64,000 nucleotides of DNA from Pseudoalteromonas luteoviolacea. Its GTDB lineage: Bacteria > Pseudomonadota > Gammaproteobacteria > Enterobacterales > Alteromonadaceae. Shown one piece after another: positions 1-21,157 of this stretch. Each line of letters opens with the position of its first letter. Within the stretch, counting starts at the first letter, position 1. The stretch covers positions 1 through 64,000 of the forward strand of contig NZ_JAGJEH010000007.1 in NCBI RefSeq assembly GCF_018100925.1, written 5' to 3'. The notes beneath the pieces were generated by a model, which did not search any database, was not told the DNA's origin, and saw only the letters and a program-made list of their open reading frames with translations. Both the position numbers and the translations under genes were made by a program.

Positions 1-3000
1 CCCACTTCTGCGCTACTAAAGGTAAAGGACGCCGCTGTTTTTTCGGTGTTTGAATACGCGCTATCACCAAATGAAACACCGTGACCGCTCGGTGCTTGTG
101 TATCTATAGTTAAAGATAAATTACTTGCCGAATTCGCAGTATTGCCCGCATTGTCGACAGATTGCGCCGAGATGGTATGGCTGCCAGTCTGTAAAGTAGA
201 GGCTGTAATACTCCAGGCGCCACCAGACACAGTAGTACTCCCAATATTACCGTCGAGGCTAGACGACAAGTTAATTGTGTCACCAGTTGTGCCAGTACCT
301 GTGATAGTCGGCGTCGTATCATTGGTAATATTATCTGTATTTGACGTGCCAGAGTCACTACTTGCGGACAGATCCGGCGTACTTGGTGCATTTGGCGCAC
401 TGGTGTCAATGGTTACATTTAGAGCACTAGAAGCACTACTCTCATTACTGCTTGCATCCGTCGCTTTTGCCGTAATGGCATGTGTAGTCGCAGAGAGCGT
501 ACTGGTCGTAATTTGCCAGTTGCCGCCCGTAGCCGTGCCACTTCCGATCACCGTACTGCCAGACTGATCACTATACAGTCTAACAGTGCTGCCAGACTCA
601 GCTGTGCCACTAAATGTTGGCGTTGTATCTGAAGTGACATTATCAGTGTTGGATCCGCCGGTATCTGAAGCAGAATCTAGGTCCGGTGTTGATGGAGCGC
701 TGGGCGCAACATTATCAACCACAGTAACAGTGAACGATTTTTGGAATGTTGTCGTTGCATCATTTGACTGAACACAAACAATGTAATCGCCAGCATTCAG
801 GGCTGCCTGCGTTTGTAAGCTAGAGCCACTGATTTGGAAGCTACCATTGCCTGTGTGTGCAGAACAGGTACCATTTGCACTACTCCCGCTATTTACCAAG
901 GTGTAGCTATGTGTGTTAGCACTATCAACGTCAGTAGTAGATAACGTACCCACATTAGCCCCTGAACTTGTGGCTGATTGATTAATGCTATTGGCTGACA
1001 ACGCAATATCTGTTGGCGCATCATTTTGCGCTGTGATGTTTACTACCGCTTGATTGGAGCCTGTGCTATTGGCGGTACCATCATTAAATGTATAATCAAG
1101 TGTTACACTAGAAGGTGGATCTTCCGATGTATTCCCATAAGAAATAGATTGAATGACCCCATCGACTATAGCCGACGTTGCACTCGCATTAAATGTAAGC
1201 ACCAATGTACCGGCTGAGTTGGTTGTCACAGTACCAACATTTGTGCCGTTGTATGTAAAAGAACTCCCTTGTGTTAGTGTTCCAAGTAAATTCAAGTTCG
1301 CGAAAACATCTTGTGAACTTGCCCCGCCATTTCTGGCTATTGTCAAAGACGCCCCGTTGTAGTTTCCGTTTCCACCATTTAACGCATCTAGTTCTGTATC
1401 AGCAACGGTTGCATCACTATCAATCGCAACTGCCGAACCATTTTCTGTAAACGTAGACAACCCGTTCAATGAACTGAATACCGGAGTATCATTCGCTGCA
1501 ATTAGCGTAATGAGTGTATTGGCACCACTATCGGCAACTGTAAAGTCTAAGCCCGCACCTGGTGCGTTTGACAGCGTCAGTGCAACTTCCACGGCGGCAA
1601 AATCGGTCGCATCCGTATCCACCTGTAAAGTGCTGTTGCCGTTGAAGCGTACATTACTGGTAGTTAGGCCCGTCACACCAGTAATCGTTAGCGTATCACC
1701 AACTGCTAAATCGGCGATTGTATCGCCATTGAGATCCGCAGCAGCACCAATAAAATTATCGTTGCCACCATTACCTGTCATCGTATCGGTACCCGTACCA
1801 GGCCTTATAGTGTCAGCACTATCGCCGCCCGTTAATATATCGTTACCTGTTAAGTCAGTTGCAGCAATCACTAGGCTATCGCCAGCAAGCGCGGAAGCGT
1901 TGATTGTCACGCCAGCACTAATGGCCGCCCCAGACGTATTGCTGACTGTGATACTGCCACCATTGGTGGAGAAGTTATCAGGTATAGTCACAGAGAATAC
2001 ACTGTTAGAGCCAAGTGCAATCGTTTCAATGCTCGACACAGTGGTAGAGGCAAAATTAAATGTGCCACCATTTACCAATTGCAAGCTTTCGCTCCCCGCA
2101 GCACCACTAATCGCTGTTGAAAAGTCGCTGACGTTCTGTGCATCAAGGGTCACTGTAGCACCACTTGCAAGTGACAGCGTGCCAACGCTACTAAAGCTCG
2201 CCCCAGTAGTATCTGCGCCATCACTTGCCAACACAATATCAGCAACCGTCGCTTCACCAGTGAGACTGCCCGTAAAAGTATTTCCAGCGATATTAAAAGT
2301 AACCGCGTCACTAGATGAAGTTGCAGTTGCACTGGTTGTCGCGCCTACATTGACTGTCCTTGTATTTGAGCTGTCATCACCGATTACATAATTCTCAATG
2401 CCCGAAAGCACCGTTATATCTCCATCTCCTGTGATGTTGATCGTTTCGGTGCCAGCAGCCGTGATTGAACCGCTAAAGCTCTGGTTTTGGGACGCAGTCA
2501 TAGTTACCGAGGCACCTGTCACTAAAGACAAATTGGTAATATTTGTTATCGTAGCGCCACTGATGTTGGCACCATTGGACATACTGAGCGTATCTGCAAC
2601 TGTATTATCGCCGGTGAGAGTGCCTGTAAAAGTGAGTGTACCAACGTCAAATGTAATTGCATCACTACTACTTGTTGCGGTTACCGAGTGCCCGGCAGCG
2701 CTAAGCGTGACGGTTCTTGAGTTTGTGGTATCGTCATTGACTGTGTAATTCTCGACCCCCGAAACTGTCGCAATGTTCCCATCCCCACTTATCGACATTG
2801 TTTCTGTGCCTGCCGCCGTTACTGTCCCAGAAAATTGCGATAATTGGGCTGCGGTGAAACTCGCCGATGCCCCGCTAGACAATGTAAGGTTTTCAAAACC
2901 AGATACCGTGGCTGCGGCAATACTACCGCCATTCCCTATAGAAAGCGTATCGGTGCCTGAACCACCAGCAAGCGTTCCTGTCGCAACCAAGGTGCCCACA

Positions 3001-5069
3001 GTAACCGTGTCATTATTCGTACTGCCTGTAACATTTTGGCTCGCAGCACCCAGTGTAAACGAGTTTGCGACTGACAGAATGTAAGATTCAATTGCCGCAT
3101 TACCAGTTAACCCATCTGTCGCCGCAGAGATAGTGATCGTGTCAGTGCCCGAAGCTGTAACAGAGCTAAAACTGTCATGCTGAGCTTCGGTCATAGTGAC
3201 AGAAGCACCGGAGTTAAGCTCTAGCACTTCTGCATTTGATATCGTAGCCCCAGCAATATTTGACCCATTGGAAAGACGCAGCGTATCTCCTGTGCCTCCA
3301 CCTGCGTTAAGTGTGCCTGTTGGGGTTAACGCTGCGACATTTATAACATCATTGGAGCTACTACCCGTTACATTTTGCGATGCGCTGCCCAAACTAAATG
3401 TCATAGCAGCATTTAGCACATATGTTTCAATATCGGGATCACCGGTTAATTCGCCATTGCCATTGGCACTGGAAAGCGTGAATTGGTTTGTGCCATCGCC
3501 ATTGATCGTGGTGAAAGATTCATGCTGGGATTCGCTTAAGGTCAGATTGCCGTTGTTTGCAGCTGATAAAGTCTCAAAATTGGTTAAGGTAGTAAGGCCA
3601 CTGATATCGACACTGTCTGAAACAGCTAGGGTGTCGGTCCCACCGCCGCCATCTGCGGTTGAGCCCGATGCATGGGACGTTTGCGCAATTGTCAGAGTTT
3701 CATTTTCACTGGTAAACAAAATAGCTGGATTTAAGTTGGCACCAGTTGTTGTATTAAATGACGCGCCAGACGATGTCGTCGACGTCACATTCGTGACACT
3801 GACGGTTGAAGTACGTGACACACTATTGTCAGTACCGTCATTTACGACCACAGTCACAGATCTAGCAGTCGTATTAGGCGTTGAAGATGTATTGTTATAA
3901 GTAATCGCATCTAAAAATGTTTGTACTTGAGCAAGCGTCGCGGTTGCCCCAGTAATTGAAATGGTATCTTGCAATGTGACATCTGATTTTCCTGAAATGC
4001 CATTTAAGGCATTTTGAGCGGCTCCAGTTACATTGAGTCCTTCAGAAGCACCATCTTGATCATTGGTCAATGAAACCGTGATTGTCTTAATGGTATCTGA
4101 CTCTGCATCGGTCACGCTGGCGCTATTAGTAATGCCAACTCCGCCACTTCCTTCAGAAAACGCAGAAGATCTATCACTGCCCCCTGCAGCTGAATCTAGA
4201 TCGACAACGGGAGCTGTGTTTGCCGCAGTCACTGTTGCACCCACTTTAAAGGTATATGTGCCTTCATTGGGATCATTGCTGGTTATCGTCACCGTTGCTT
4301 CAGGAGAGCCTACCGTTGTCGGATCAAGTTGAACGACAAAGGTTGTACTCGTTACGCCGTTTAGTGAACTAGACCCCGGTTGGCTCGAAATGGAAAAGTC
4401 ATTTGATGCAGAAATACTGACTAGTGGCGATCCACTTAAAGTTAACGTAGAACTTGCAATCACATTTTCGATGGTAAACGTACGAGTAAAATTACTTGCG
4501 CCAGTTTGATGTGAACCAAAATCCGTGTGGTCACTGGCACTCGGTGTGTTATCCCCAGAGGTAATGGTTTGGTTGTTCCCTCTTAAGTTGATATCAGGAT
4601 CTGGCGCAGCAGCAACGGTACAGTCATCAGTATCAGGAAACCAGACTCCTCCACCGGGGCCAGCCTCACAGCTATCTTTACTGAGATAGGCCGACGTACA
4701 GCCAAATGACACTCTACAAGATGCCGCAAGTTCTTTAGCAATACTGACTTCACCACTGACTTGCGTGGAGTTCATCCCCTCACTACTAAGTAACCCTTGC
4801 TCAGCTAAAAATGCCAGTGTCGCGGCTTTCGCATCTTCTCCATCACGCGATTTTGAACTTGTCTGCTGAGCGATGTTAAACACCTGAATAGGTATTTCAT
4901 TCTCAGCAGAATGAAAGTGTGTATCATCACTCACTTTAATCGTATCTAGCGTCGGCACTTTATGGCTGGATGAAAAATAGCTCTCTGAAATATCTGAAGG
5001 CGGATTCGCAGCAACAAGAGAAGGGATCACGACTCCCAGTATTGAGGTGGTCATATCAAGCTTTTTCAT
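1..5069 (-). CDS. Giant repetitive surface/adhesin-like protein, C-terminus beyond the window
   Basis: I translated the minus strand from the ATG at 5069 and found it open to the left edge (about 1689 codons, no stop), so the gene is truncated by the window. The N-terminus (MKKLDMTTS...) has a short hydrophobic stretch, then a Cys-containing segment, then a choice-of-anchor-D/HYDIN-like domain (about residues 150-270). Next come a cadherin-like domain and several diverged units with the pattern ASVTMT-x-AQ followed by TAAGTETI (roughly 1850-3750). An RTX-like Gly/Asp block ([16 protein letters not shown]) lies near 1770-1850, then further cadherin-like domains, then tandem bacterial Ig-like domains toward the left edge (about 1-750). 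The start overlaps the stop of the upstream gene (ATGA), implying coupled translation. Such proteins are usually secreted adhesins. Export by type I secretion is inference, since the C-terminal signal is not visible. Confidence 0.9.
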
Positions 5070-6253
5070 TTCAATACTTCCTTCGTAAAATCGTACAAGT
5101 GCGCAGAAATAGCATCATCACCACTGACCATTTCGGGAAACGTAGAGTTGGGAATAATGCTCAGATCATAAAGCTGACTTACATCACCTTTAAATTGCAG
5201 TTTTGATAGGGTTTGTCCGTTATGTTTATTTACTATCCATATTCCACACACCGTATCCGTTTGGGTGTGCGCCGCCGTCAATGGGATATCGCTGAAAACC
5301 TTAGATGCGCGAACTTGGCTGGTAGCAACCAGCATTAAGTCACCAAAAAATGACAGTCCGCGGGTAAATCCAGGTAAAGTGCAAACTGTTGACACTTCAC
5401 GGGTATCCGGGTTGTAACTAATAACTTCGCCTAAACCCGAATTACACAAGTAAACAAGTCCATCGTCACATCTAGGTGAGTGCGGCATTGATAATCCACT
5501 TAACAATATTTCATTGCTATCCACATCTATCAACGTACCATTTTGCTCAGTACGCCAAGAATCTTGACTATCTTGTGTATTAAAAGTGGTTACATATTTG
5601 GGACGGCCATTTTGCATCGCCATGCCGTTTAGATGACAGCGATCCTCAGCTTTTAACTCACTGATAAAATGCGGTTTCCATCGCGCTGTAAAGCCAGATT
5701 CAGACGACACTGTGGCAAGACAAGAAAAACTCGAATTCACTACCCACAAGCCTTCATCTCCCCAGGCGATATCATGGGTATTCAGGGTGCCCGTTGTAAG
5801 AGAAGAGCGCTCAGTAAATAATTTATCGCATTGCTTGATTGCACTGATCTGCTCCTCTCTTAATTGCTTAAACGAGGAAGTATCACGCTCTTCGTCTTGC
5901 AGCTTGCTGGCCAGCGAATCCAAATCGTCTAACTCTCCACGGCAAACGCTATCGCGAGACATATCACTCGATTTAAAATTCACAATGCGATTGACTGTGC
6001 TTACTAAAAAGCGATCTTCACTCACACAAATGCCCATTGGCCGAACAAACTTCTTAACGCTACAGCTAAGCGCATCAGCCCGACTGCGAAGCAACATGAC
6101 TGCATGTGATTGGTAGCTTGAAACTACCAACGAAATACCTAATGCTTGAAGAATTTTAGGAAAATTCTCACTGTATTCACTTGCAAAATCAATGTTAACG
6201 AAATCAGATTTATCACCTGCCCTTCCGTAACCCTGTTCCCGATACCCTTGCAT
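5066..6253 (-). CDS. TIGR03032-like (DUF4915) beta-propeller protein
   Basis: A 395-aa protein with the features I associate with the TIGR03032 family: [17 protein letters not shown], a CHLNG motif, MPHSPR followed by LVYLCNSG, and TRGLSF. These are repeated blade-like strands, suggesting a beta-propeller. The chosen start is the ATG at 6253 because a strong AAAGGAG lies just upstream; an in-frame GTG at 6289 would add 12 unlikely residues. The stop overlaps the start of the giant protein gene by four bases, so the two are probably made together. The family's function is not established to my knowledge. Context suggests a helper in producing or processing the giant surface protein, which is inference. 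Confidence 0.8.
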
Positions 6254-6312
6254 GTCTCTACTCCTTTGCGAGCGGCTGGATAACACCACTCAACAATCAA
6301 ACAAGCTTAAAG

Positions 6313-7458
6313 TTAATTATTATTATTGAACCCAATTTCACTGCTCGATAGACCACAGCTAAGCAAGTAGGAGAGCTCCCCTGTTACCAAAGCTGCAGCA
6401 GTGGAAGTACCACTGGCTATAAAACTTGTGTTCTTTTTTTTCAGAGATAATGTCGCAGGCGCATACAGATCAACACACCTGCCAAAATTCGAAAATGGAG
6501 CCAAAGTGCCGTCACCCGACAGCGCTCCGACCGTTGTTACTCCCTTGACTTCAGATAGTTTATTACCGATACATGCATCCTTCCCATGGTTGCCAGCCGA
6601 TACGACCACATAGGCTACGCCACCATGATTTAACCCTTGCTCAATGACCTCTGAAAGCAACTGAGAAACAAAAGGCAAAGTCCAGCTGCTGTTAATAATG
6701 TCTACATTCATTTTCAAAGAGATACTAAACGCCAAAATCATCGCCGAGTTAAGCGTACTCGCTTGTTTAATGGCAACGAGTTCCGCGTCTACTTTCGCCT
6801 TATTTTTTGTTTTAAATTGCAGCTGATGTGCAATAACACTGGCAATCATGTTGCCATGTGTCGCTTCTGATTTTGTTTTGGCAGAAATGATATTTTGGCT
6901 ATCCGCGTCATAGGCAAGTAGAACATTAAAAAGTGAAAATGCGGATTCAGACAAATTAAAGCCATCATCTATGATGGCGATGCGACTGGGTTTTATCGAT
7001 GAATTGCATTGATAATTTCGCAGGCGCTGTAGAGTTTGCGAACTTGCGTGATTATTAACCTTGCGCTTTTGTATTTGGGGAGACCGAACGATGGCAAAGT
7101 CCGGCTGCACAAAAGCGCCCTTCAAGCGGCTGATTGATTCATAAGTCGACAAAAATTCGTCTTGCGTCGGCGTAACAAGTACAATTTCGTTAAGTCGATC
7201 ATTGGCAAGTACCTGCAAACTTAAGATTGATTCTATTCGTTCTAAGTGCTTTTTTTGCTCATTATTTACTTTAACAAGCATTTTTTCATTGAGGTAAAAT
7301 TGCAGTCCAATATTACTGTTGTAAATATTCTTCTGGCTTGTTGAATACAATTGTATTGTTTCATTATTATTTATGAAGTTGATAAAGGGTGCCTTGGAGC
7401 CACTTTTAGCAGTAGCTCCAATACTTAAGAACACCATGAAACAAAATATAAACTTCAC
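6313..7458 (-). CDS. S8 family subtilisin-like serine peptidase, exported
   Basis: A subtilisin-fold protease with its triad visible: Asp in IIDDGF (about residue 164), His in THGNMIAS (about 201) and Ser in SGTSTAAA (about 352). The oxyanion Asn is in SAGNHGKDAC. I chose the GTG at 7458 because it gives a clean signal peptide (MKFIFCFMVFLSIGATAKS). An upstream ATG at 7512 lies inside the preceding gene, has no ribosome site and would bury the signal peptide. The protein ends with a short run of Asn. It sits between three collar proteins and the TIGR03032/giant-protein pair, so processing of an exported partner is plausible but unproven. Confidence 0.85.
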   Translation of the reverse strand: MKFIFCFMVFLSIGATAKSGSKAPFINFINNNETIQLYSTSQKNIYNSNIGLQFYLNEKMLVKVNNEQKKHLERIESILSLQVLANDRLNEIVLVTPTQDEFLSTYESISRLKGAFVQPDFAIVRSPQIQKRKVNNHASSQTLQRLRNYQCNSSIKPSRIAIIDDGFNLSESAFSLFNVLLAYDADSQNIISAKTKSEATHGNMIASVIAHQLQFKTKNKAKVDAELVAIKQASTLNSAMILAFSISLKMNVDIINSSWTLPFVSQLLSEVIEQGLNHGGVAYVVVSAGNHGKDACIGNKLSEVKGVTTVGALSGDGTLAPFSNFGRCVDLYAPATLSLKKKNTSFIASGTSTAAALVTGELSYLLSCGLSSSEIGFNNNN

Positions 7459-7472
7459 TACAAACAGCTCAT

Positions 7473-8021
7473 CTAACTTCGCGGTGGAAAAATACCGTCC
7501 ATACAAAGACAAAACTGTATTGCAAGATACGGTTGTCTATTTTCATGAGCTTGATTTTGGCCATTGCTCAATATTGCTTGAGAATTCAAAGTAATATTTG
7601 AGCCTCCTAAGTCATCAGAAGAATAAACTCGGGCTACACCACCGGTTGTTGCCCTTGCTGCTGACAATAACCCCGTACCATTTGACCTATCAACAAGGCC
7701 ATCTTTAATGGTTTTACCCGCATTTAATTCATGGGTATGAGTAGGCAGTTCGCTTTCCAATAACACCACATCGGGCAACCCAACTCGATTTCCCAAATCG
7801 CCCGGAGATAAACCGGGCCCAGTGCCAAACATGGTTGGCGTTCGACCTTGTAAATCTGGTAACTGCATGTTTGTTTGACCATTGCCACCATAAGTCGTAC
7901 CTATCACAGCAAACAACGCCTGATTTTGAGATATATCGACAAATTGGCCATCACAAAACGCATAGCTAACGGGAGCAAAGGTGTAAGGCAACATATCAAC
8001 CTGACCAATAAATGGATCCAT
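7473..8021 (-). CDS. Phage tail collar domain / microcystin-dependent (MdpB-like) protein, third copy
   Basis: A 182-aa member of the tail-collar family (COG4675 type). Family signatures are MDPFIGQVDMLPYTFAP, FCDGQ, LFAVIGTTYGGNGQTN, LPDLQGRTPTMFG, and the end pattern NRQPYLAIQFCLCMDGIFPPR. In phages this fold closes the base of tail fibres; free-standing bacterial copies have no firmly known role. A strong AAAAGGAG precedes the ATG. It is the last of three tandem paralogues with short spacers, all carrying their own ribosome sites. No phage structural genes are nearby, so I read the trio as a host surface or assembly module rather than a prophage remnant. Confidence 0.88.
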   Translation of the reverse strand: MDPFIGQVDMLPYTFAPVSYAFCDGQFVDISQNQALFAVIGTTYGGNGQTNMQLPDLQGRTPTMFGTGPGLSPGDLGNRVGLPDVVLLESELPTHTHELNAGKTIKDGLVDRSNGTGLLSAARATTGGVARVYSSDDLGGSNITLNSQAILSNGQNQAHENRQPYLAIQFCLCMDGIFPPRS

Positions 8022-8034
8022 TTTAATTCTCCTT

Positions 8035-8562
8035 TTAGTTACGTGACGGATAGAGGCCGTTCATACAAATAATAAAGCCAAGGTAGAGCATTGGCATACG
8101 GTTTTCATGGGACTCGTCTCCACCAGCAGTGCCGATCGCTCTTGCACTAAATGGGTTGGTTTCTAGTCCCGCCGTTGTATCGGGTAAAAAGTGCAGCTCA
8201 CTGCCAATATATGACTGCCCGTCTATTGGTGCTTGTAGCTCTGAAGTGGCACTTGTTACTTGCACTGGGTGGCTATGTGCCGGCAGTTGGCTCTCCGATA
8301 GCACGACTCGCTCAACGCCATACCTCTGTCCCAAAGATCGGTTAGTTAATCCCGGGCCCTGACCATCCCCCACAGGGACCCGCCCACGCATATCGGGTAG
8401 CCCATAAGTGGTACGCCCATCTCCCCCATAATTTGAGCCCAACAAGCTAAACAAAGACTCGTTGTCTGTGATTGCCTGCAACTGTCCGGCACAATAAGAC
8501 CAATGGTAGGGGGAATATACGCCTGCAAACATGCGAATTTCACCTAAATATGCATCACTCAT
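8035..8562 (-). CDS. Phage tail collar domain / MdpB-like protein, second copy
   Basis: A 175-aa collar-family protein. Diagnostic segments are MSDAYLGEIRMFAG, WSYCAGQ, LFSLLGSNYGGDGRTTYG, LPDMRGRVPVG and the C-terminal MPMLYLGFIICMNGLYPSR. It is clearly homologous to the copies on either side but well diverged in its central loop (about residues 95-140), the part that varies most in the family. AAAGGAG precedes the ATG. The spacer to the next copy is 13 bases. Its role is unknown, and co-expression of all three suggests a hetero-oligomer or alternative tips, which is inference. Confidence 0.88.
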   Translation of the reverse strand: MSDAYLGEIRMFAGVYSPYHWSYCAGQLQAITDNESLFSLLGSNYGGDGRTTYGLPDMRGRVPVGDGQGPGLTNRSLGQRYGVERVVLSESQLPAHSHPVQVTSATSELQAPIDGQSYIGSELHFLPDTTAGLETNPFSARAIGTAGGDESHENRMPMLYLGFIICMNGLYPSRN

Positions 8563-8577
8563 ACTCTGCTCCTTTAA

Positions 8578-9126: not shown

Positions 9127-9155
9127 AAAAACCACTCCTTAACTTTGACTTGGGT

Positions 9156-11898: not shown

Positions 11899-14800
11899 AT
11901 GTCATTAACACATTTTTCTGATCCATATATAGAGAATAACTTTGAATCCTCCCACTATGAGCTGCTTCATAAGATTGGTGAAGGTGGTTTTGGTAAAGTA
12001 TATAAGGCAAGAAACAAAAATACTGAGCAAACTGTTGCAATTAAATTTCTTGCCCTTGAGCCCCATTTAGAAGAGTCAAAAAAGAAACGCTACGTTGAAC
12101 GATTCAAGCGAGAAACCGCGCTGAGTGGGCAGTTAGAGCATCCACATATAGTGCGTCTTCTAGACAAAGGGCAAGTCAATGAACACCTTCTTTATGGTGT
12201 TTTTGAATATATCGAAGGTCTATCTCTACGTGAACATTTGATGCAAGAAGGAGCACTGGATGCTGTCGGTGCCACCGATATCATGCTGCAAGTGCTCGAT
12301 GCGCTTATTCATGCACACAAAAAAGGGATTATTCACCGAGATATCAAACCCGCCAATATCATGCTTACACAAGCGGGGGCGAAAACACATGCCAAAATTC
12401 TAGATTTTGGTATCGGTACCTTGACCCAAGAAAACAGGCATCAAGACTTCTCAACTATCACTTTAACTCAAGAGACGATTGGTACCCCTTCTTATAGTGC
12501 TCCAGAGCAGTTAAGAGGAGAACCGGCTTCAGAAAAAACAGACTTATATGTGTGGGGTCTGGTATTACTAGAATGCCTAACAGGCATGCCAGCGGTGACG
12601 GGGTCGAGTGTAGCCTCGATTTATCACAAGCAGCTCAGTGATGTGCATATTCCCATCCCTAGTGCCTTGCTCGGCCACCCTTTGTCCGGATTACTGCGCA
12701 GAGTTCTACAGAAAAACGCCACTGAACGTGTTATTTCAGGAAAAGAGATATTTTCTGAACTTCACACCATGAACGTCTCCAACTTGGTAGGTATCTTGGC
12801 AGATGTGCAAGCGCAACATGGCTACGATGACCACACGGTTGTTTTGCGTAACGACGATCCGAATAGCCCAGTGTCGCAAGACTATACAACACTCACAGAA
12901 CGTAAGCAGATCACCGTGTTGGCATTGCGCTTGAGTGCAAAAAGGCTGAACGAAAGCGCAAAAGACTTTGACGTTATCGACACCTTATTTAAATCTCAAC
13001 GCAACCACTGTATCGATATAGCAACACGATTTGGGGCATACCATGTCGGCAACCTTGCCGATACAATGTTGTTTTATTTTGGTTATCCCGTAGCAAGCGA
13101 CAATGATACCCGACTGAGTGCTAGAACAGCTTTAGATGTGATCAGTGAACTAGGTAAACGTAATGCACTGATGCAAGAAGCCCACGGGGTTCAACTCAAT
13201 GCTCACATCGGTATACATTCGGGTATTTTCGTAACCTATGCCAACTCGGTACCTGAGGGCAATATTGCCAATATAGCTATGGATCTGGCAAGACTGGCAG
13301 GGGAAAGACAAATTCTCTGCTCAGCAGAGTCTCGAGCTATTTTAGAGCCCTATAGTGACTTCGACTATTTTGACAATATCCAACTTGGTTTATCTTTTGG
13401 GCAACTGTCCATATACAACTTAAAAGGTGAAAAGCGTATCGAAGCGTTTGGCTTTATGCGCGGTACCAAGAGTCACCATAAATTAATTGGTCGACAACTA
13501 GAGCTAGACAAAACACTGTCTGTAATTAATGGCGAAAACAATACCCGCATCGCCCATATCTATGGTGAAGCAGGTATTGGGAAGTCTCGATTACTGCAAG
13601 AAGTTAGGGATAATGCCAGCAAGTATCAACATTTGGTTGCTCAGTGTTTACCAGAACACCAAAACAGTGCTCTGTACCCAGTTCTCAATTTAGTTAAATA
13701 CCTATTCAATACAGACAATCAAACGACAGATAATATCACGCAATTATTCACTGATGTCTTAACCGACTATGGCCAGTCCGATTCAGAAATCAATGCAACC
13801 ATTCCTATCTTAATGGTATGGCTCGCTGTCGAATTACCTGAAGATATGCAACCATCTTCGCAATCACCAGACGAGCAAAAGCAGTTACTGTTTGCAGGTT
13901 TAAGTGCGCTGTTATTATCTCGTCAATCCAGTATCAGCGAATTTAAGCTCTATATCATAGAAGATATTCATTGGTCAGACTCTATCACCTTAGAGTTCTT
14001 ACGCTATTTTGCCGCAAAGCTTCTAGATGGCAACGTTATGATAAGTACTTCAAGGCAAGCATGCCCGAGCAGCTTACATGACCTAACGCTGCTAGAGATC
14101 GAACTTAATAAACTTACTGCACAAGCTACAACAGACTTTATTGAACAGCTGTTCGACAGCAAAAATGTGTCCGACAATGTACGTTCTGTGCTGGTAAAAC
14201 GAACCGATGGCATACCACTGTTTATCGAAGAGCTGGTCGATATGCTCAAAGAAAAGCAGCTCGTTCACGAGTCTGGTGGTGCTATCACATTTATCAGCCC
14301 TGACAGGCTGGAGCAAGTACCAAGCAGCTTACGTGAGTCGCTGCAACAAAAGCTTGATAACCTAGTGCATGCTAAAGAAACAGCTCAGCTTGCCGCCACC
14401 ATTGGTAGAGAGTTTGAATACGAGTTGTTAGTTGCAACGTCTTCACTGAGCGAAGATCAAATTCAAAATGACTTGAACGAGTTACTTGAGCGAGAGTTAA
14501 TCGTTCAACAAAGGCGCGTAAACAGTGATAGCTATGTATTTAAGCACGCCCTAGTCAGAGATGCTGCCTATGACTCACAAACTCATACAGAAGCCACAGC
14601 GAAACACGCACTATTTATAGATGCTTTAAAACGCTTGGATAGGTACACCGATCAACCATTTGTAACTGCATTTCATCTACAAAAAGTAAGTCAATTTGAA
14701 AGCGCTGCAACTTTGATGCTAGACAGCGCAAACGGTGCAAAGCAGCTGTTTGCAATCATGGAGGCCGAGTCATACTTACAAGAGGCTTTAAGAATCTGCC

Positions 14801-15744
14801 AAACAGGTGAACTGAGCGAAACCGAGCTGTACCTTAAAGTTAAAAATGATCTCGCGTCTGTCCGTATTGCAGGAAATGGCTGGGTAGATGAGCAAGCCAG
14901 TGATGCACTACATGAAAACTTTAAAGTGCTAAACGAAAATACAGATGCTAAAGAAAGGTTTACCACGACTCGTGGACTTTGGTTACAACTATACGCCACA
15001 GGCGAAACCGAGCAGGCCCACCAACTCGCATTGGATCTATACCAAAATAGTGAGTGGGTTCCTGACGAATTTAAGCCGGTTATTTATGAAATTCTTATTC
15101 AGACCTTATTCTCCAAAGCCGAGTTCTCAAAGATCATTACCGTACTCGATGAGATGCCAGACAATATATTCAAAAATGACTCCGAGACTATTTCAAATAA
15201 CTTTGGTTTCTGCTCCGAATTAGTTTGTATCGGTTTTAGGGCGTTTGCAGAGCTTTATCTAGATAACCAAGCTCAGGCCGACAAACTGATCACACAACAA
15301 ACAAAACTCGCTCATGAGGTTGGCATTGTCGATGTGCTATCGGCCACACACGGATTCCAAGCAGAATACCAATTAAACAAAGCTCTGTTGGCTGCCGATA
15401 AAACCACTTTTATCCAGTGTGCCGAAGAGGCAAAGCGCTTATCTCAAAAAGGTGTGGACTTGGCGAGAGAAGCAAAAAATGACGGCTGGAAAGGCTATTG
15501 TGAAATGCTGCATTTTATTGCCAGCGTCGATGCGGATATCTCAATTGAACAATTTGAGATGGGTATCAAACAGTTTTCTGGCTACTTGTCACATCGCGCC
15601 TTTTACTATTCCGTATTAGCCAAAATGACCTATTTATTGTGTGGCGAAACCAACACACAATTCCTTGATATTGCAGAAGAGTCTTCCGATGTATCAAGTT
15701 CACTTTATGTAAAACCTCAACTAAATACACTAAGGAAAATTTAG
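11899..15744 (+). CDS. Ser/Thr protein kinase – degenerate adenylate cyclase – AAA ATPase fusion (TOMM-system kinase/cyclase type)
   Basis: A 1281-aa soluble fusion. Residues about 20-280 are an intact Hanks-type kinase: IGEGGFGKV, VAIKF, HRDIKPAN (His146, Asp148), DFG (Asp169) and GTPSYSAPE. Residues about 330-520 follow a class III cyclase pattern (RKQITVLALRL, LFYFGYPVASD, HIGIHSGIF). However, the first metal-binding Asp is replaced (ALRL), the GDG loop reads ADT, and the transition-state Arg position reads Asp (NIAMDLA), so cyclase activity is unlikely. A P-loop (GEAGIGKS, 556-563) and Walker B (LYIIEDIHW, near 684) form a MalT/PknK-type ATPase, followed by TPR-like helices. Length and order match the family described as TOMM system kinase/cyclase fusion (TIGR03903). 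No YcaO gene is in view. It ends directly against the next ATG. Confidence 0.88.
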   Translation: MSLTHFSDPYIENNFESSHYELLHKIGEGGFGKVYKARNKNTEQTVAIKFLALEPHLEESKKKRYVERFKRETALSGQLEHPHIVRLLDKGQVNEHLLYGVFEYIEGLSLREHLMQEGALDAVGATDIMLQVLDALIHAHKKGIIHRDIKPANIMLTQAGAKTHAKILDFGIGTLTQENRHQDFSTITLTQETIGTPSYSAPEQLRGEPASEKTDLYVWGLVLLECLTGMPAVTGSSVASIYHKQLSDVHIPIPSALLGHPLSGLLRRVLQKNATERVISGKEIFSELHTMNVSNLVGILADVQAQHGYDDHTVVLRNDDPNSPVSQDYTTLTERKQITVLALRLSAKRLNESAKDFDVIDTLFKSQRNHCIDIATRFGAYHVGNLADTMLFYFGYPVASDNDTRLSARTALDVISELGKRNALMQEAHGVQLNAHIGIHSGIFVTYANSVPEGNIANIAMDLARLAGERQILCSAESRAILEPYSDFDYFDNIQLGLSFGQLSIYNLKGEKRIEAFGFMRGTKSHHKLIGRQLELDKTLSVINGENNTRIAHIYGEAGIGKSRLLQEVRDNASKYQHLVAQCLPEHQNSALYPVLNLVKYLFNTDNQTTDNITQLFTDVLTDYGQSDSEINATIPILMVWLAVELPEDMQPSSQSPDEQKQLLFAGLSALLLSRQSSISEFKLYIIEDIHWSDSITLEFLRYFAAKLLDGNVMISTSRQACPSSLHDLTLLEIELNKLTAQATTDFIEQLFDSKNVSDNVRSVLVKRTDGIPLFIEELVDMLKEKQLVHESGGAITFISPDRLEQVPSSLRESLQQKLDNLVHAKETAQLAATIGREFEYELLVATSSLSEDQIQNDLNELLERELIVQQRRVNSDSYVFKHALVRDAAYDSQTHTEATAKHALFIDALKRLDRYTDQPFVTAFHLQKVSQFESAATLMLDSANGAKQLFAIMEAESYLQEALRICQTGELSETELYLKVKNDLASVRIAGNGWVDEQASDALHENFKVLNENTDAKERFTTTRGLWLQLYATGETEQAHQLALDLYQNSEWVPDEFKPVIYEILIQTLFSKAEFSKIITVLDEMPDNIFKNDSETISNNFGFCSELVCIGFRAFAELYLDNQAQADKLITQQTKLAHEVGIVDVLSATHGFQAEYQLNKALLAADKTTFIQCAEEAKRLSQKGVDLAREAKNDGWKGYCEMLHFIASVDADISIEQFEMGIKQFSGYLSHRAFYYSVLAKMTYLLCGETNTQFLDIAEESSDVSSSLYVKPQLNTLRKI

Positions 15745-15984
15745 ATGAAAACATATCCTAAAGGGCTACTGTCTTTTACTTATAACGCTGCAAACGATCC
15801 AGAAGTGAGAGAGCTAGTGTTACAAAACCTACCTCAGGCTATGGCGCTTTTCGACCTATCTGAATCACAAACAGAACTGGTACAGAAAGTAGTGAAAGAG
15901 TCATTCTTAACTGATGATCTATGGGCTCAGTACTGCGAAGAGCTTCGTCCAGAAATTGACGACGATATCGCCAAAATCTGGTAA
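15745..15984 (+). CDS. Small LigA-like protein, possible peptide precursor
   Basis: A 79-aa acidic protein starting immediately after the kinase stop (TAGATG). The stretch AANDPEVRELVLQNLPQAMA...FDLSESQTELVQ resembles the small helical domain of the LigA subunit family (DP-x-x-R ... L-x-x-AL ... LT/S-x-x-x), and similar short proteins occur as leader-like parts of peptide systems. The C-terminal third (LWAQYCEELRPEIDDDIAKIW) has one Cys and ends in Trp. A 9-bp hairpin follows at once, an arrangement common after highly expressed small precursor genes. The real function is unknown; precursor status is inference from context with a TOMM-type kinase. Confidence 0.7.
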   Translation: MKTYPKGLLSFTYNAANDPEVRELVLQNLPQAMALFDLSESQTELVQKVVKESFLTDDLWAQYCEELRPEIDDDIAKIW

Positions 15985-15991
15985 TGGAGAC

Positions 15992-16013
15992 ATGCGAGGC
16001 GCTTGCCTCGCAT
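15992..16013 (+). terminator. Perfect 9-bp stem-loop after the 79-aa gene
   Basis: ATGCGAGGC – GCTT – GCCTCGCAT, a perfect 9-bp GC-rich stem with a four-base loop, starting eight bases after the stop. There is no T-tract, so it may act as a partial terminator or RNA-stabilising processing hairpin that sets the ratio between the small protein and downstream genes. Confidence 0.6.
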
Positions 16014-16019
16014 CACACT

Positions 16020-16976
16020 ATGAATAATCTATCTCAACTACATCAGCAATTGTGCCACTCTCATGGCTTGTTAATTAATCAAAACAACCAAGAAGCAACC
16101 AAATATCTTGCTGACAAAATCCCCCAATTTACCAAAGGCGTTTGTTACGAATACCGGGCTGCTGAACTCAATCACCCATGTGACTTTCTCGTCGCCTATG
16201 ACACGTCTGAAGAAACGCTTCTGCAACTTAGAGGTTTGTTTGATTCGATTGAACAACATCAATCCAAACAAATTAATGAATTTTTAGATCTCTATACTCA
16301 GCACCGCTGCCTAAGAGACATACCACTTATTTGGTTGAGCTTTGACTGGAGTAAAACCCACTACCCTATTATTCCGACATTTTATATAAGCACACAACAC
16401 TATAGCTATGTAAAAGGAGAAAAGCTTAACGACACAATTAAGCATGCACTGTCGACATTGGCGCCCAACTCTCTTGCTCTAGGCGAAGCACTTGCCAGGA
16501 AATTAGAATACGGTAAGTTGAATCATATTGGGTTTACTTTTGCCAGAGATAGCCTAAAGACGAAATTCACAATCACATTAGAGTGTGAACACGTTTTGCC
16601 TCAGCTTGCGCTATTTGAGTGGCAAGGTGATGTAGCTCATTTACAAAGCGTATTGAACATTGCGTCTGAACTGAGCCACAAAGTACAAATCAGCATTTCA
16701 TTCACTGATCAATTGAGCACAAAAATAGAAGTTGAGCTGCCTTGGGTGAGGCAGGAAAAAGATAACTATATTAACGACGAGTTTATTGAAAGAGTCATCG
16801 ATATTTGTGACAAAGAGCCTAATTATCACAGGCTGAACGACGTATCTAAATGGCTTGAAAACAATCCAAATAACAAAGCTTTTTATACCAAGTTTTCAAT
16901 CTTCGAAGATGGCAGCTGCAATCTGAAAAGTTATCTACATTCAAGCCCACAACCAAAAAGAAGATTATTCGGATGA
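16020..16976 (+). CDS. Unknown protein with repeated alpha/beta-hairpin pattern (possible ABBA-fold prenyltransferase relative)
   Basis: A 318-aa soluble protein from the ATG at 16020; an alternative ATG at 15984 overlaps the previous stop (TAATG) but would make the hairpin coding and add an atypical N-terminus. I recognise no motif. Reading secondary structure by eye, helical stretches alternate with five paired strands: VCYEYR/CDFLVAYD, IPLIWLSF/IIPTFYIS, HIGFTFAR/KTKFTITLE, VQISISF/TKIEVELP and YTKFSIF/NLKSYLH. Five alpha-alpha-beta-beta units are the layout of ABBA prenyltransferases, including cyanobactin LynF-type enzymes, so I propose a distant relation. It overlaps the next gene by four bases. 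Confidence 0.6.
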   Translation: MNNLSQLHQQLCHSHGLLINQNNQEATKYLADKIPQFTKGVCYEYRAAELNHPCDFLVAYDTSEETLLQLRGLFDSIEQHQSKQINEFLDLYTQHRCLRDIPLIWLSFDWSKTHYPIIPTFYISTQHYSYVKGEKLNDTIKHALSTLAPNSLALGEALARKLEYGKLNHIGFTFARDSLKTKFTITLECEHVLPQLALFEWQGDVAHLQSVLNIASELSHKVQISISFTDQLSTKIEVELPWVRQEKDNYINDEFIERVIDICDKEPNYHRLNDVSKWLENNPNNKAFYTKFSIFEDGSCNLKSYLHSSPQPKRRLFG

Positions 16977-18532
16977 TTAAATCACTTACTCTAATTTCCA
17001 GCGTAACGCTTACAAGCATAATGAGTTTTCAAATAGCTGCCGAGCAACAGTACGCTACATTTCCAGATTGGTTGAGTAAAAACAGCTGTGATTATGAAAA
17101 TCACAGTTTATTTTTACCTGACGATATTACAACACTGCCTTACTTTCCACCTGACGCCTATAACAAAAAAATCTGTAGAACGATAAAACCTCTCACGCCA
17201 AGTGATAGCAGTTACAATAAGAAGCTGGCATTTTTAACCAACCAGTATGACTTATTCTCTTGGGCTCAGTTTATAACTTTGAACCGAGAAGTGGATAAGC
17301 AGTTCAATGTCACGGCGAAGAACTTACAGGTATGCACAGGTGCAAACTGCAATACCCCTATTTGGTTTAACTGGAGAGATACAGACAGCGTTTTTATGGA
17401 AAATGGTTGTACACCAGATGGTTGGGATTTTACTAAAAACGCGTCTGTTAACCCAGCTTTAAAAGCCATTAGTCAAGTTGCCCCACTTGATATGGCAATA
17501 AGCCAAGCCATTTTGGTCGATCAAAACAATGAACCTGTTTATTACCAAAAGCTGCTGTCTCCGAATATATTTAATTTGGTCACGCAATTTGAAAACCAAA
17601 GTGCATTAGTTAAACCATACCAGCTCTATAATATAGATGGGCAAATTGACTATTTAAAAAGTTATGGCCAAGTTATCGCAAACACAGGTGGCTATGTTAA
17701 TTGTCCGGATGATGTCAACAAGATCTGTAATAGCATTCCAGCGCTAGAAAACTATGGTCCGACAGATAATACTGGCGGACTGACCATTAAAGTAGCTTGG
17801 AAAGTGCTAGGTGAAAATGACGACCCGAGCAAGTTCATACATATGCAAAAAAGTGTCAAAGTGTATGAAAACCTGGACAATGGAGAGTATAGTAAGTCTG
17901 CTAAAAACGTCACTAAAACATTAGGTGTCGTCGGTTTTCATATCAGCCATAAAACCGTTTCTTCTCCAAACTGGGTGTTTACAACATTTAGCCACGAAGA
18001 CAACATATCTGGCAGTAATCCATTGTTCAATGATCCCAACTGCCCAACCTGTGCTGTTAATCATGCAAATGGCGGTGAGACAAAAACACAGGTCACTAGA
18101 TTGGAACAAATAGGCCCCATTACAAAACAGGTCAATCAGTTTGTAAAACAAAAGTTAGCTAAAGAAAAGTCTGTCCTTCAATATTACAACTTGGTCGGCA
18201 CGCAGTTTTCAACCGACAGCAGCGATCCTGAGCGTGAAACTTTTCCAGGTAAAATTGCTAACTATTCTGGAGGCGCACCTCATCCGGTATTTCTAACCAA
18301 TGAAGTGCTCGAAACGTTTCTTCAGCTTGGTAATACCCCAGTTGGTAAAGATAATAAGCTATTCTATAAAAGCTCATCATGTATGAACTGCCATGTGAGT
18401 GGTGGCTTTGCGCAGGCCGCAATCAACAATGTGCCAAAAGATCAGCTAAAATCGAGTTACTCCATTTCTCCAACTGACTTTATGTTCATTTTTGAAGATG
18501 CACATTGGCTAAACAGCCAAGCCTGTAAATAA
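16973..18532 (+). CDS. Exported c-type cytochrome-like protein with one C-terminal heme site
   Basis: A 519-aa protein with a signal peptide (MIKSLTLISSVTLTSIMS, cleavage near IAA-EQ). A single heme-binding CMNCH motif lies at residues 470-474, near the C-terminus. The segment DLFSWAQFITLNRE corresponds to the FSWQ-x-F-V-A-LN signature of a family annotated only as cytochrome c family protein. Multiple Cys and a large non-heme N-terminal part suggest a catalytic or binding domain upstream of the heme. Its start overlaps the previous stop (ATGA), so it is coupled to the operon. It acts in the periplasm or outside. The substrate is unknown. Confidence 0.8.
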   Translation: MIKSLTLISSVTLTSIMSFQIAAEQQYATFPDWLSKNSCDYENHSLFLPDDITTLPYFPPDAYNKKICRTIKPLTPSDSSYNKKLAFLTNQYDLFSWAQFITLNREVDKQFNVTAKNLQVCTGANCNTPIWFNWRDTDSVFMENGCTPDGWDFTKNASVNPALKAISQVAPLDMAISQAILVDQNNEPVYYQKLLSPNIFNLVTQFENQSALVKPYQLYNIDGQIDYLKSYGQVIANTGGYVNCPDDVNKICNSIPALENYGPTDNTGGLTIKVAWKVLGENDDPSKFIHMQKSVKVYENLDNGEYSKSAKNVTKTLGVVGFHISHKTVSSPNWVFTTFSHEDNISGSNPLFNDPNCPTCAVNHANGGETKTQVTRLEQIGPITKQVNQFVKQKLAKEKSVLQYYNLVGTQFSTDSSDPERETFPGKIANYSGGAPHPVFLTNEVLETFLQLGNTPVGKDNKLFYKSSSCMNCHVSGGFAQAAINNVPKDQLKSSYSISPTDFMFIFEDAHWLNSQACK

Positions 18533-18542
18533 TCTCGTATAG

Positions 18543-18561
18543 GGCTATTTTTATAATAGCC
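18543..18561. terminator. Probable bidirectional terminator
   Basis: GGCTATT – TTTAT – AATAGCC forms a 7-bp stem just after the cytochrome stop (18532) and just before the stop of a small leftward ORF (18562). The arms are not strong and T-runs are short, so termination would be partial. Confidence 0.5.
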
Positions 18562-18846
18562 TTACTTACAGAAACATAAAAAACTATAAATCGCTGCAAT
18601 ACAAAGCATTGCCAATATTACGTAGCAACAAATTTTCACACCGGCATGTTTGTCCACAGCTCTATTATCAACAAGCCACCTCACGCCGTAACGCCACAAC
18701 ACAAAAAACCAACTAAAAATTAACACTTTCATATTACCTGATGATAAATTAAACAACTCGTATTGTGATATCTCTTGTTGTCTTGCGGCAGTACAAATTT
18801 TCCACCGCACACTAACAAACAATATAAAGTTGTTGTTATTTAGCAT
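18562..18846 (-). CDS. Hypothetical small membrane protein, antisense within the operon gap
   Basis: A leftward ORF of 94 aa in the 378-base gap of the rightward operon. An inner ATG (…NMKVLIFSWF) would give a 56-aa protein with two hydrophobic segments (VLIFSWFFVLWRYGVRWLV and YVILAMLCIAAIYSFL). Its stop coincides with the convergent hairpin, which supports reality. No clear ribosome site precedes either start and I recognise no family. Confidence 0.35.
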   Translation of the reverse strand: MLNNNNFILFVSVRWKICTAARQQEISQYELFNLSSGNMKVLIFSWFFVLWRYGVRWLVDNRAVDKHAGVKICCYVILAMLCIAAIYSFLCFCK

Positions 18847-18910
18847 TAAATATCAAAAGTTTAAGAAGTATTTTTAAATCCATATCTTTTCTAGTTTAAA
18901 AGGGAATTTG

Positions 18911-20251
18911 ATGATTTATAGTGTACTTATCTATTTAACAGCGGTTGCTAGTTCTTCAGTGGATGTTGACCATGCCTATTTGCACCAACTCCCAACCCAG
19001 TGTGATAATTACACTCAATTGGCCAATCAAGGATATCGCATACTGCCCTGCTTCTTTGCTACATTGGGCAACAATCGGACAAACCAGTCAGTCATTCGCG
19101 ATGCTTACCGACAATTTCATGCGTTAAATTGGGATGTATTGGAAGGCCTTCCTGGCGTTGCCGACTATCGCTCTAATTACCTATCTAAAAGAGACACATA
19201 CCCGGTATGGCAATCATGGCCTAACTTAAACTCATTTTCCAAGTTAGATGACACATCTTGGCAAAAAGCCAAGAAAGAAATACCTGATATATGCCACGAT
19301 TTTGTCTCATTTCAAGATCGCGCTTTGTTTGAAAAAAACCATCCAAATATAACCAATTTAAATACACCATTATTACTTGAAACGCTTTTAAACCCTCAAG
19401 GTAACATTCTAATAGATAGCAATGGTAACCCAGTCTACTACTCTATTCACATGAACAAAGTAGCATTTGACTACTTAAAAGATAATGAAACGGCTGACCC
19501 CAAAATATTTCCCGCAGCTGATGCATATGCAAACAAGAGAGGGTCAATTTTTGTTAAAGCCGCATGGCTAATAAGTTCTTTTTCAGATGCAGAAAACTAC
19601 CATCGAGCGGCGGCATTTATCGTTGAAAAAGAGCAACAACAGGTAACAAATTGCAAACTAGCGGTTGTCAGTCTTTCTGCATTACACATAATCAATAAAA
19701 ATAACCCGACGCCACAAGCTTTAGCGCCAGCAGATACAAGTTACAAACTGAATATGTGGAGCTGGGCAACATACCTGCACTCAGGCGCGGTTCCAACTAA
19801 ACAGCAAAATTCAAAATCAGAGGTTGATCTGAATTCAAAGTACCCGCTTTTTAGTGAGCGTTTTATTACGATTAAAGAAAGCTGTTATGATCGGTCTGGC
19901 AATTTAAATACTCAACTTCCTACCTGTAAAATAAATAAGCCCACTTGCTACTCGAATGCTTCAGGTTGTGAACCCAGCGCTCTTTTAGGCCTTCTTTCTA
20001 ATGAAGACAAAGATATCCTAACAATTTATAACGCTAAAACAGCGGAGCTGTTAAAGAGCTCTGTTTGGGGGAATTATCGTATTCTAAATAGTCAATGGTC
20101 AGATATGGGGATCATCAAACCAAAATATTTAGCCAACCCCATTTTAGAGCCATTCGATGGGCTAGATTCGAGCTGCAGCGGATGTCATTCCGATGCAAAT
20201 ACACAGAAATTTAATGACTTTGTATTTTCTACAAACCTAAAACTTAACTAG
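18911..20251 (+). CDS. Second exported c-type cytochrome-like protein with C-terminal CxxCH
   Basis: A 446-aa protein from the ATG at 18911 (AAAAGGGA upstream; a TTG one codon earlier is less likely). It has a short signal peptide (MIYSVLIYLTAVASSS). One heme motif, CSGCH at about residues 422-426, lies 20-odd residues from the C-terminus. Shared features with the 519-aa protein upstream are DVLEGLPGV-type Trp/Leu segments, internal 'GNPVYYS' (compare 'NEPVYYQ') and FVKAAWLISS (compare IKVAWKVLG), so the two are diverged paralogues. It lies 15 bases before the next gene. A periplasmic redox role is probable; the reaction is unknown. Confidence 0.78.
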   Translation: MIYSVLIYLTAVASSSVDVDHAYLHQLPTQCDNYTQLANQGYRILPCFFATLGNNRTNQSVIRDAYRQFHALNWDVLEGLPGVADYRSNYLSKRDTYPVWQSWPNLNSFSKLDDTSWQKAKKEIPDICHDFVSFQDRALFEKNHPNITNLNTPLLLETLLNPQGNILIDSNGNPVYYSIHMNKVAFDYLKDNETADPKIFPAADAYANKRGSIFVKAAWLISSFSDAENYHRAAAFIVEKEQQQVTNCKLAVVSLSALHIINKNNPTPQALAPADTSYKLNMWSWATYLHSGAVPTKQQNSKSEVDLNSKYPLFSERFITIKESCYDRSGNLNTQLPTCKINKPTCYSNASGCEPSALLGLLSNEDKDILTIYNAKTAELLKSSVWGNYRILNSQWSDMGIIKPKYLANPILEPFDGLDSSCSGCHSDANTQKFNDFVFSTNLKLN

Positions 20252-20266
20252 AATAGGGAATCTAAT

Positions 20267-21085
20267 ATGAAAAGAACTTTACTGTTTTCGGGTTTACTAC
20301 TGGCATTTTCGGCTATCTCTGTTGAGGCTGTCGGCTCATCTTCTTATCAATTCAGCAAGCAAAACGCTTCAGTCCACTTAACCAGTCAACAATTATATAA
20401 ATACAAAGACAGCCTTTGTGCCCTCCAAATCGTAAATACTATGGTGCTAGATGGTGATCTGCAGTCTGTTACAAGTACCATGTATCCACTTCTTAACAGT
20501 GATGCGAAAAATGCAGAGTTGCAGAAAGAAAAACTGAAAAATCTATACTACGTACCTTATTCAGAAGTAAGTGCGCAACAAGGCACATCTATTCACTACT
20601 TGATTGAAAAAGCTTATGGTCCCATCACTAAACTTACAAACGTCTATTTAAGCAATGAAATGGCTGACGAATTAGTTGCGCAAACAGCAAGCTACAATGC
20701 CCAAGCAAAATTGACTCTAACATTAGGGAATGCAGCAGTTAGAACGGCACTCACTCCAGATCATGGTGTTGCATATGAAGATGAAACTGAGCTTCACAAT
20801 TATTCTGGAGACAGGAGCTTCATCTTAAACTCCCAAGATCAAAAAAACTTAGCGCTACTTTTGTTCTCAATTGCAAACAACAAAGCGCAATATGATAAAT
20901 TCCAAGACCTACTTAAAAGTAAGAATATCAAAAAGATTAGCAATAACTTTAAGGCTATTGCACTTCCAAATAAACAATTTATCTCACAGACAGCAGCTGA
21001 CAAACTGGCTTCTCTTACGGTAAAACACGACCATACTGAATTGGTATCTTTTATAGGCACTAATATTTATAAACCTTCTTGGTAA
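20267..21085 (+). CDS. Unknown periplasmic protein
   Basis: A 272-aa protein with a clear signal peptide (MKRTLLFSGLLLAFSAIS, cleavage near VEA-VG). The mature part is mostly helical and has one Cys (DSLCALQ), with no motif I recognise. TAGGGAATCTAAT precedes the ATG, and the spacer to the cytochrome gene is only 15 bases, so it is the last gene of that operon before the terminator at 21127. It could be a partner of the two heme proteins; this is inference from position alone. Confidence 0.7.
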   Translation: MKRTLLFSGLLLAFSAISVEAVGSSSYQFSKQNASVHLTSQQLYKYKDSLCALQIVNTMVLDGDLQSVTSTMYPLLNSDAKNAELQKEKLKNLYYVPYSEVSAQQGTSIHYLIEKAYGPITKLTNVYLSNEMADELVAQTASYNAQAKLTLTLGNAAVRTALTPDHGVAYEDETELHNYSGDRSFILNSQDQKNLALLLFSIANNKAQYDKFQDLLKSKNIKKISNNFKAIALPNKQFISQTAADKLASLTVKHDHTELVSFIGTNIYKPSW

Positions 21086-21126
21086 AGAGAGCGAATGTTC
21101 ACCGTTTTAATTCGTAGATAACATTC

Positions 21127-21157
21127 AACCTTGAGTGACTGGATGTCACTCAAGGTT
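21127..21157 (+). terminator. Strong Rho-independent terminator closing the kinase/cytochrome operon
   Basis: AACCTTGAGTGAC – TGGAT – GTCACTCAAGGTT, a perfect 13-bp stem with a five-base loop followed by a T/A-rich tail. It lies 41 bases after the last gene. The flanking 21158-21371 holds only the promoter area of the next gene; I saw nothing else in it. Confidence 0.85.

Follow-up and report, generated by a model that had tools for sequence, protein, structure and literature searches.

The locus studied here lies in a 6.5-Mb genome of Pseudoalteromonas luteoviolacea, within the first 64 kb of contig C65 (64,000 nucleotides, hereafter the window), and its right half is a kinase-led operon resembling gene clusters for ribosomally synthesized and post-translationally modified peptides (RiPPs). 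In clusters for thiazole/oxazole-modified microcins (TOMMs) with BMA_0021-type (NHLP-Burk) precursors, a TIGR03903 kinase/cyclase fusion has the precursor directly 3' of it, as in the window, and a large Ser/Thr kinase adjoining such precursors is mentioned in a passage of Haft et al. 2010 (PMC2887384). A second likeness is to PalX of Paenibacillus alvei, an NHLP precursor whose conserved C-terminal tryptophan is prenylated by PalQ, as part of the published account describes (PMC10853753); there, too, a small precursor with a conserved C-terminal Trp stands beside a putative modifying enzyme and a kinase. Thus, going by that part of the account, a neighbour-encoded enzyme can prenylate the C-terminal Trp of an NHLP precursor, with an enzyme fold other than the one considered here. 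In contrast to TOMM clusters, the window's cassette lacks YcaO and instead holds a small protein with a terminal tryptophan (W-tailed), an ABBA-like protein, and exported cytochromes, and a search of the open-licence literature found no description of such a kinase/W-tail/cytochrome cassette. We see even odds for reading the right half as an allele of an exchangeable RiPP-type cassette under a TOMM kinase/cyclase regulator, with a Trp-tail chemistry that we infer. Its genes and the exchanged segment are the following.

11899..15744, + strand: KIN, a Ser/Thr kinase with degenerate cyclase, AAA, and helical tail, a TOMM kinase/cyclase fusion (TIGR03903, PF00069, PF13191)
15745..15984, + strand: p79, a 79-aa putative precursor with C-terminal ...AKIW (12 of 12 family members W-ending)
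15984..16976, + strand: a 330-aa ABBA-like protein, putatively Trp-modifying (profile links to same-position families, conserved residues)
16973..18532, + strand: hem1, an exported single-haem c-type protein, CMNCH at 470 (haem motif, relatives)
18908..20251, + strand: hem2, a second exported single-haem c-type protein, CSGCH at 423 (same cluster as hem1)
20267..21085, + strand: peri, a 272-aa protein with a signal-like start and C-terminal ...KPSW, partner of hem2 (10 of 10 family members W-ending)
14573..21310, no strand: the exchanged segment, kinase tail plus p79, ABBA-like gene, hem1, hem2, and peri (DNA comparison with sister genome G030)

The first four genes are tightly coupled (gaps of 0, -1, and -4 nt), hem2 follows hem1 after 375 nt and peri follows hem2 after 15 nt, and the operon ends at 21085, near position 21157, where the stretch covered by the original prediction ends. 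That prediction had placed sixteen genes around a single spacer, ten leftward and six rightward, and all are borne out by the list of open reading frames (ORFs) and the profile scans, including the kinase fusion, the 79-aa protein, the two haem proteins (one CxxCH each), and the 272-aa protein with its signal-like start. Its label "ABBA-like" for the 330-aa protein fares less simply, as no family matches and the support is an indirect argument, given below.

Apart from the window, 66 places in Pseudoalteromonas give kinase matches of at least 520 bits, spread over 50 of 108 genomes (one genome per species). Sixty of these places were fetched as stretches of ~20 kb, some ending at contig ends, which together with the window gave 61 loci; a simple script served for gene calling and BLAST for clustering, and signal peptides and Tat- or Sec-like starts were judged by eye. 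The loci were classed by their upstream gene families (I, n = 32; II, n = 10; III, n = 12; IV, n = 3; V, n = 2; unclassed, n = 2), site I being by definition the one with a left-type neighbour. KIN itself (1281 aa) matches TIGR03903, the TOMM system kinase/cyclase fusion model, with 741.8 bits, above the curated cut-off of 705.75, and has both the HRD and DFG motifs. Downstream of the kinase, many of the 61 loci encode YcaO (PF02624), amidohydrolase, PhyH, or TfuA proteins. YcaO-type cassettes occupy the same upstream contexts in Pseudoalteromonas, and the YcaO/PhyH-type loci also hold precursor-like proteins. Four of the latter were tested against the BMA_0021-family TOMM precursor model; two (c46 and c42 type) match N-terminally and one C-terminally, all below the cut-off, and the fourth has no match. 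Outside the genus, a named Paraburkholderia locus (PGU19) has the classical order of FHA protein, kinase, two TOMM precursors, and YcaO-type protein, and a Variovorax locus is similar by eye. Across the phylum, 29 of 398 genomes match TIGR03903 at E 1e-100, but only the window's own genome and G654, in which YcaO adjoins the kinase, exceed the cut-off; the kinase as query against 369 genomes of the class (E 1e-70) gave four matches, namely its own genome, G140, and two in which the match is confined to the part behind the kinase domain. The kinase family, together with the YcaO, TfuA, and PhyH neighbours elsewhere, places the right half among RiPP loci. We rejected an azole-forming TOMM cluster as its identity, since no YcaO is found among the window's right-hand genes.

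Other cassettes behind such kinases are varied. The same genome has two further TOMM kinases, L088 (G000:C34:323515) and L091 (G000:C65:133517), one preceding YcaO and TfuA (thioamide type) and the other a precursor-like protein, amidohydrolase, and YcaO. Four loci (L064, L068, L084, L086) have a PhyH-like protein with a 153-154-aa protein that has neither a family match nor a terminal Trp, and an OsmC-YcaO protein (c2, minus strand) is constant downstream of the cassette at L043 and other loci in part of the genus.

Several cassette types (YcaO, PhyH-c50, p79-ABBA-hem, hem-peri, and hem-W-ABBA-like) each recur in more than one upstream class, and one boundary of the exchange lies within the kinase gene. 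Between the window and sister genome G030, the kinases are 93-100% identical per 100-residue window up to residue 900 and 12-19% thereafter; at the DNA level, similarity ends at 14573 and returns at 21311 with 93%, and the left halves are 84-85% identical. The same pattern extends to the 61 loci. For pairs of the same site class, the kinase head averages 0.78 of the maximum score and the tail 0.03 when cassettes differ (441 pairs), compared to 0.81 and 0.28 when they agree (171 pairs); between different sites, tails average 0.08 with the same cassette (287 pairs) and 0.02 with different ones (931 pairs). With near-duplicates excluded, the nearest tail shares the cassette class at 54 of 61 loci (not at the remaining 7/61) and the site class at 33 of 61, and the nearest head shares the cassette at 37 of 61. 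Twelve cross-site pairs were chosen for sharing cassette genes; their tails are 30-64% identical in eight cases and 17-27% in four. These alignments show kinase residues 1 to ~890 to be constant and the tail and downstream genes to be swapped as a block. Kinase tails track the cassette class, and therefore the last third of the kinase moves along with its cargo, likely by recombination within the conserved head. Such an exchange of kinase tail and cargo is well supported.

The second regularity concerns the small proteins beside the cytochromes, all 33 of which end in tryptophan, the trait shared with PalX: 12/12 of the p79 family, 10/10 of the peri family, 4/4 of c45, 3/3 of c54, and the single proteins of L056, L077, L072, and G140. 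None of the 34 precursor-like proteins counted in YcaO/PhyH cassettes (seven families, a few singletons left uncounted) does so, and only 2 of 816 other ORFs of at least 100 aa in the 61 loci. A scan from the cytochrome side found a W-ending ORF of at least 60 aa near each of the 32 cytochrome genes, and also caught one 72-aa chance ORF. In G140, a genome of another family, the kinase and cytochrome are accompanied by a 90-aa protein ending in ...VYW and an ABBA-like protein running off the contig, which, as far as gene content goes, is an outside confirmation of the four-gene set. On these counts, the terminal-tryptophan rule is well supported. In contrast, 14 cytochrome relatives at kinase-free loci have no same-strand W-ending neighbour (0/14, with rough gene calls in GC-rich contigs); at L152, a 559-aa W-ending ORF lies on the opposite strand beside the relative. 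The p79 relatives form one cluster, and the p79 analogue in L072 has sub-threshold matches to Nif11 (17.8 bits, cut-off 23.8) and the NHLP clan. Some W-proteins have export-signal-like starts, which are Sec-like in peri of the window and of L032 and L046. In L039 (oriented 16040-16360), a p79 relative has acquired a Tat-like start (KRRFLK), suggesting that its product belongs outside the cytoplasm. We also considered p79 as a 79-aa quinoprotein subunit of the QhpC type, a candidate dropped because p79 has a single Cys.

For the enzyme that might act on this residue, the 330-aa protein is the candidate. In ABBA barrels, a Glu binds the indole NH and Lys and Tyr residues the diphosphate. The protein has six clusters of relatives in a large protein set, and in 13 members, 12-60% identical to the window's (one truncated), E56, D67, W117, D121, and H181 are fully conserved, and K194, K303, K315, and Y317 almost fully. 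These residues fall on apparent beta-hairpins in about five regions, the fourth weak, in a crude propensity profile. Such residues on such hairpins would be expected of an ABBA barrel, and the 330-aa protein is a probable ABBA-barrel enzyme. Profiles connect it with the families that take its place in other cassettes: c41 and c55 combined match the ABBA-like profile at 95.7% (E 1e-8), rising to 96.6% (E 6e-10) with u56 and G140 added, and c41 and c55 match the G140 protein at 93.7%. This ~300-aa family carried by cytochrome cassettes is, judged from such profiles, a new family. Its likeness to cyanobactin and ABBA/DMATS prenyltransferases, for which excerpts of two accounts were used (PMC13290415, PMC7253389), lies in apparent repeated beta-hairpins and conserved Glu, Lys, and Tyr, with residue roles taken from general background, but unlike them it matches no family model. 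The ABBA profiles PF11468 and PF11991 match 0 of 13 members; genome searches with both were silent even for the controls and are hence uninformative. Isoprene-synthase-type matches are likewise absent from the right-hand genes (E up to 1) and from the 13 members (E up to 5).

The third component is the exported cytochrome. MauG, MbnH, and similar haem enzymes modify Trp residues of the proteins they pair with, and the window resembles them in pairing an exported c-type haem protein with a Trp-bearing protein; in contrast to the two haems of that type, all 32 cytochromes have one CxxCH, and the Trp is terminal. In 17 aligned cytochromes, F100, W134, K273, W276, H323, W334, T338, N363, Y405, E447, C470, C473, H474, and D502 are shared, fourteen residues that, from conservation, exceed what a plain haem carrier needs. 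With wider relatives aligned, the invariant set is smaller and still includes K273, W276, W334, N363, Y405, and E447. PDB profile searches with the cytochromes gave chance-level matches only. Among 369 class genomes, 8 match the cytochrome profile, and relatives elsewhere adjoin LodA and an FAD oxidoreductase (L157), GMC and FAD-SLDH subunit genes (L147), a lytic polysaccharide monooxygenase (L150), or GH31 or S9 genes (L146, L158); at L153, the one neighbour tested has no family match. Perhaps, the family is a general exported redox partner.

Taken together, p79 would be a ribosomal precursor presenting a C-terminal Trp, which the 330-aa protein, as an ABBA-barrel enzyme, would modify in the cytoplasm, most likely by prenylation. 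The modified product would then be exported, and the exported mono-haem cytochrome would oxidise or otherwise use the tryptophan tail. In the hem2-peri unit, the cytochrome would act with a W-tailed partner in the absence of the transferase, and the kinase may control the output via its cassette-matched tail. The fullest version of this proposal, which we offer tentatively as a possible rather than a probable account, is a new RiPP class in which a terminal Trp would be prenylated by an unrecognised ABBA family and then oxidised extracytoplasmically by a mono-haem cytochrome dedicated to it; its cassettes would be exchanged through recombination within the kinase gene, whose replaceable tail would be a cassette-specific sensor or docking module.

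Several results weigh against this proposal. Neither the 330-aa protein nor the 12 other members have a Pfam or NCBIfam match, PDB profile searches with ABBA-like proteins returned chance-level matches only, and the profile link of the L077 protein is non-significant (6.7%), with its motifs in register. p79 has no family match, with none to the NHLP, Nif11, or BMA_0021 leader models of NCBIfam, and the W-protein families are mostly mutually dissimilar in profile comparison (exceptions are L056-G140 at 95%, E 5e-8, and, more weakly, p79-L072 at 77%, E 2e-5). Most W-proteins have no signal peptide visible by eye, though the cytochrome is exported. The Paenibacillus precedent also differs: PalQ belongs to the isoprene-synthase superfamily, PalP is a histidine kinase, and no cytochrome is reported for the three-gene cluster, all unlike the window, in the part of the account used (PMC10853753). 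Finally, the ABBA-like gene is present at 22 of 28 cytochrome loci and missing from the hem-peri units of the other six (L037, L038, L040, L041, L060, and L061). Therefore, the Trp tail follows the cytochrome no less closely than the transferase.

This last point leads to the rival that survives best, rather unlikely in our estimate, in which the exported cytochrome alone uses the terminal Trp, as a substrate or a docking tag, and the ABBA-like protein has another job, e.g. as an escort of the partner. It would account for W-ending partners at every cytochrome gene, including the hem-peri units, for the Sec- or Tat-like starts of some W-proteins, and for the fourteen invariant cytochrome residues beyond the plain haem motif. 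However, each cytochrome has a single CxxCH, the fourteen kinase-free relatives without a W neighbour suggest that the cytochrome as such needs none, and an ABBA-like gene accompanies most of the cytochrome loci.

The original prediction had instead read both operons as one regulated surface/peptide programme, which we judge unlikely. The left half and the remaining features of the region are listed here.

11410..11898, no strand: divergent spacer between the operons, 489 bp
10702..11409, - strand: propeller-like protein, the first leftward gene (Tat-like start by eye)
10082..10696, - strand: AspH, an Asp/Asn hydroxylase (PF05118, 1e-15)
9527..10039, - strand: GNAT acetyltransferase (PF00583)
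9156..9461, - strand: DUF6916 protein (PF21880, 45.7 bits)
8578..9135, - strand: collar protein 1 (PF07484)
8035..8562, - strand: collar protein 2 (PF07484)
7473..8021, - strand: collar protein 3 (PF07484)
6313..7512, - strand: S8 subtilisin-type protease (PF00082)
5066..6289, - strand: TIGR03032/DUF4915 protein (TIGR03032, 341 bits, cut-off 251.5)
3..5069, - strand: giant Ig-like surface protein, cut at the contig start (PF19077)
21333..21977, + strand: outer-membrane barrel protein, a constant gene outside the cassette, just past the exchanged segment (PF13505)

The left half is one of the collar/DUF6916/TIGR03032 operons, for which the open-licence literature search found no functional description, and the same core is found at nine other loci in the genus. 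DUF6916, used as the left-core marker, is encoded in 28 of the 108 genus genomes and the kinase in 50, with both in 22 (Fisher p = 1e-4, uncorrected for phylogeny). In 18 of the 28, DUF6916 lies beside the kinase; nine of the other ten were fetched (all but G017), and GNAT, DUF6916, three collars, and TIGR03032 are present at 9/9, with S8 called at eight and AspH at seven. No kinase or cassette is near any of these nine cores within the stretches fetched. Conversely, 29 of 61 loci show genes of another kind upstream of the kinase. A related set, in which a giant protein is accompanied by a single collar and by genes named by eye as formyl- or methyltransferase-like, is found at thirteen further site-I loci; L042, also at site I, is cut by a contig end. 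Gene order indicates that the two halves are separable units, because the left core is kinase-free off-site, kinases also stand beside other genes, and the left half persists through exchange of the right; the left half appears to be a self-standing operon for surface or secreted proteins. The right half stands as an undescribed peptide-type operon next to the left one, as originally predicted, and the neighbourhood comparison finds the two adjacent in 18 genomes, but it does not establish a single joint programme.

The separation is not complete. A cytochrome/W cassette is present at 18 of 18 kinase loci beside the left core versus 10 of 43 others (p = 1e-8, uncorrected), the latter split into 2/13 beside the related left set and 8/30 elsewhere. 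This association was found after the fact, is a result against full INDEPENDENCE of the halves, and counts against our proposal and in favour of a joint programme; full independence, which we had entertained, is softened accordingly. On a left-core tree built from three proteins, cassette type changes at least 8 times among the 18 loci (9 with the split-kinase locus L063 counted separately; mean of shuffles 9.3), so the cassettes are scrambled with respect to the left core and always of the cytochrome/W kind, i.e. exchanged freely yet within a class. In contrast, ten cytochrome cassettes lie away from the left core, the eighteen loci form only two groups on the tree, and one site's allele pool alone would keep a class together, as in class III, where 11 of 12 loci have YcaO cassettes. 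Among cytochrome genomes without adjacency, 2 of 9 have the left core versus 8 of 81 other genomes (hand count). Either a site-bound allele pool or a functional link may explain the uniform cassette class at left-core loci; one half may functionally prefer the other, leaving separable units with an unexplained preference. Very improbable, finally, is the W-protein as a dedicated chaperone, inhibitor, or immunity partner whose unmodified Trp tail plugs the cytochrome active site; the one-to-one pairing of often overlapping genes would fit this, but kinase family, neighbours, and positions agree with those of RiPP precursors and many W-proteins have no visible export signal.

Among the leftward genes, the propeller-like protein has a sole, weak match to ScyF, far under the cut-off, and the giant protein, incomplete because the first base of the window is the first base of the contig, has Big_13 domains and a sub-threshold RTX match. 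An Rfam scan of 1-24000 gave no matches, promoter-like sites do not exceed those in shuffled sequence (23 versus 26.5), and terminator-like sites number 12 versus 8.8 in shuffles. The divergent spacer contains a run of ten C at 11530-11539, 369 nt upstream of the kinase, and no C/G run of at least 7 is found in this spacer in 38 other loci checked; the run may be prone to slippage or may stem from the assembly.

The analysis separates two adjoining operons that might otherwise be studied as one, and a cytochrome with a W-ending protein behind a TOMM kinase provides a simple signature for genome mining. The predicted change of a single terminal residue is directly testable by mass spectrometry. 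If the proposal is true, ribosomal peptide natural products would gain a tryptophan-tail chemistry and a new enzyme family, and Pseudoalteromonas would diversify its products with one kinase head and a swappable tail and cargo in several gene contexts.

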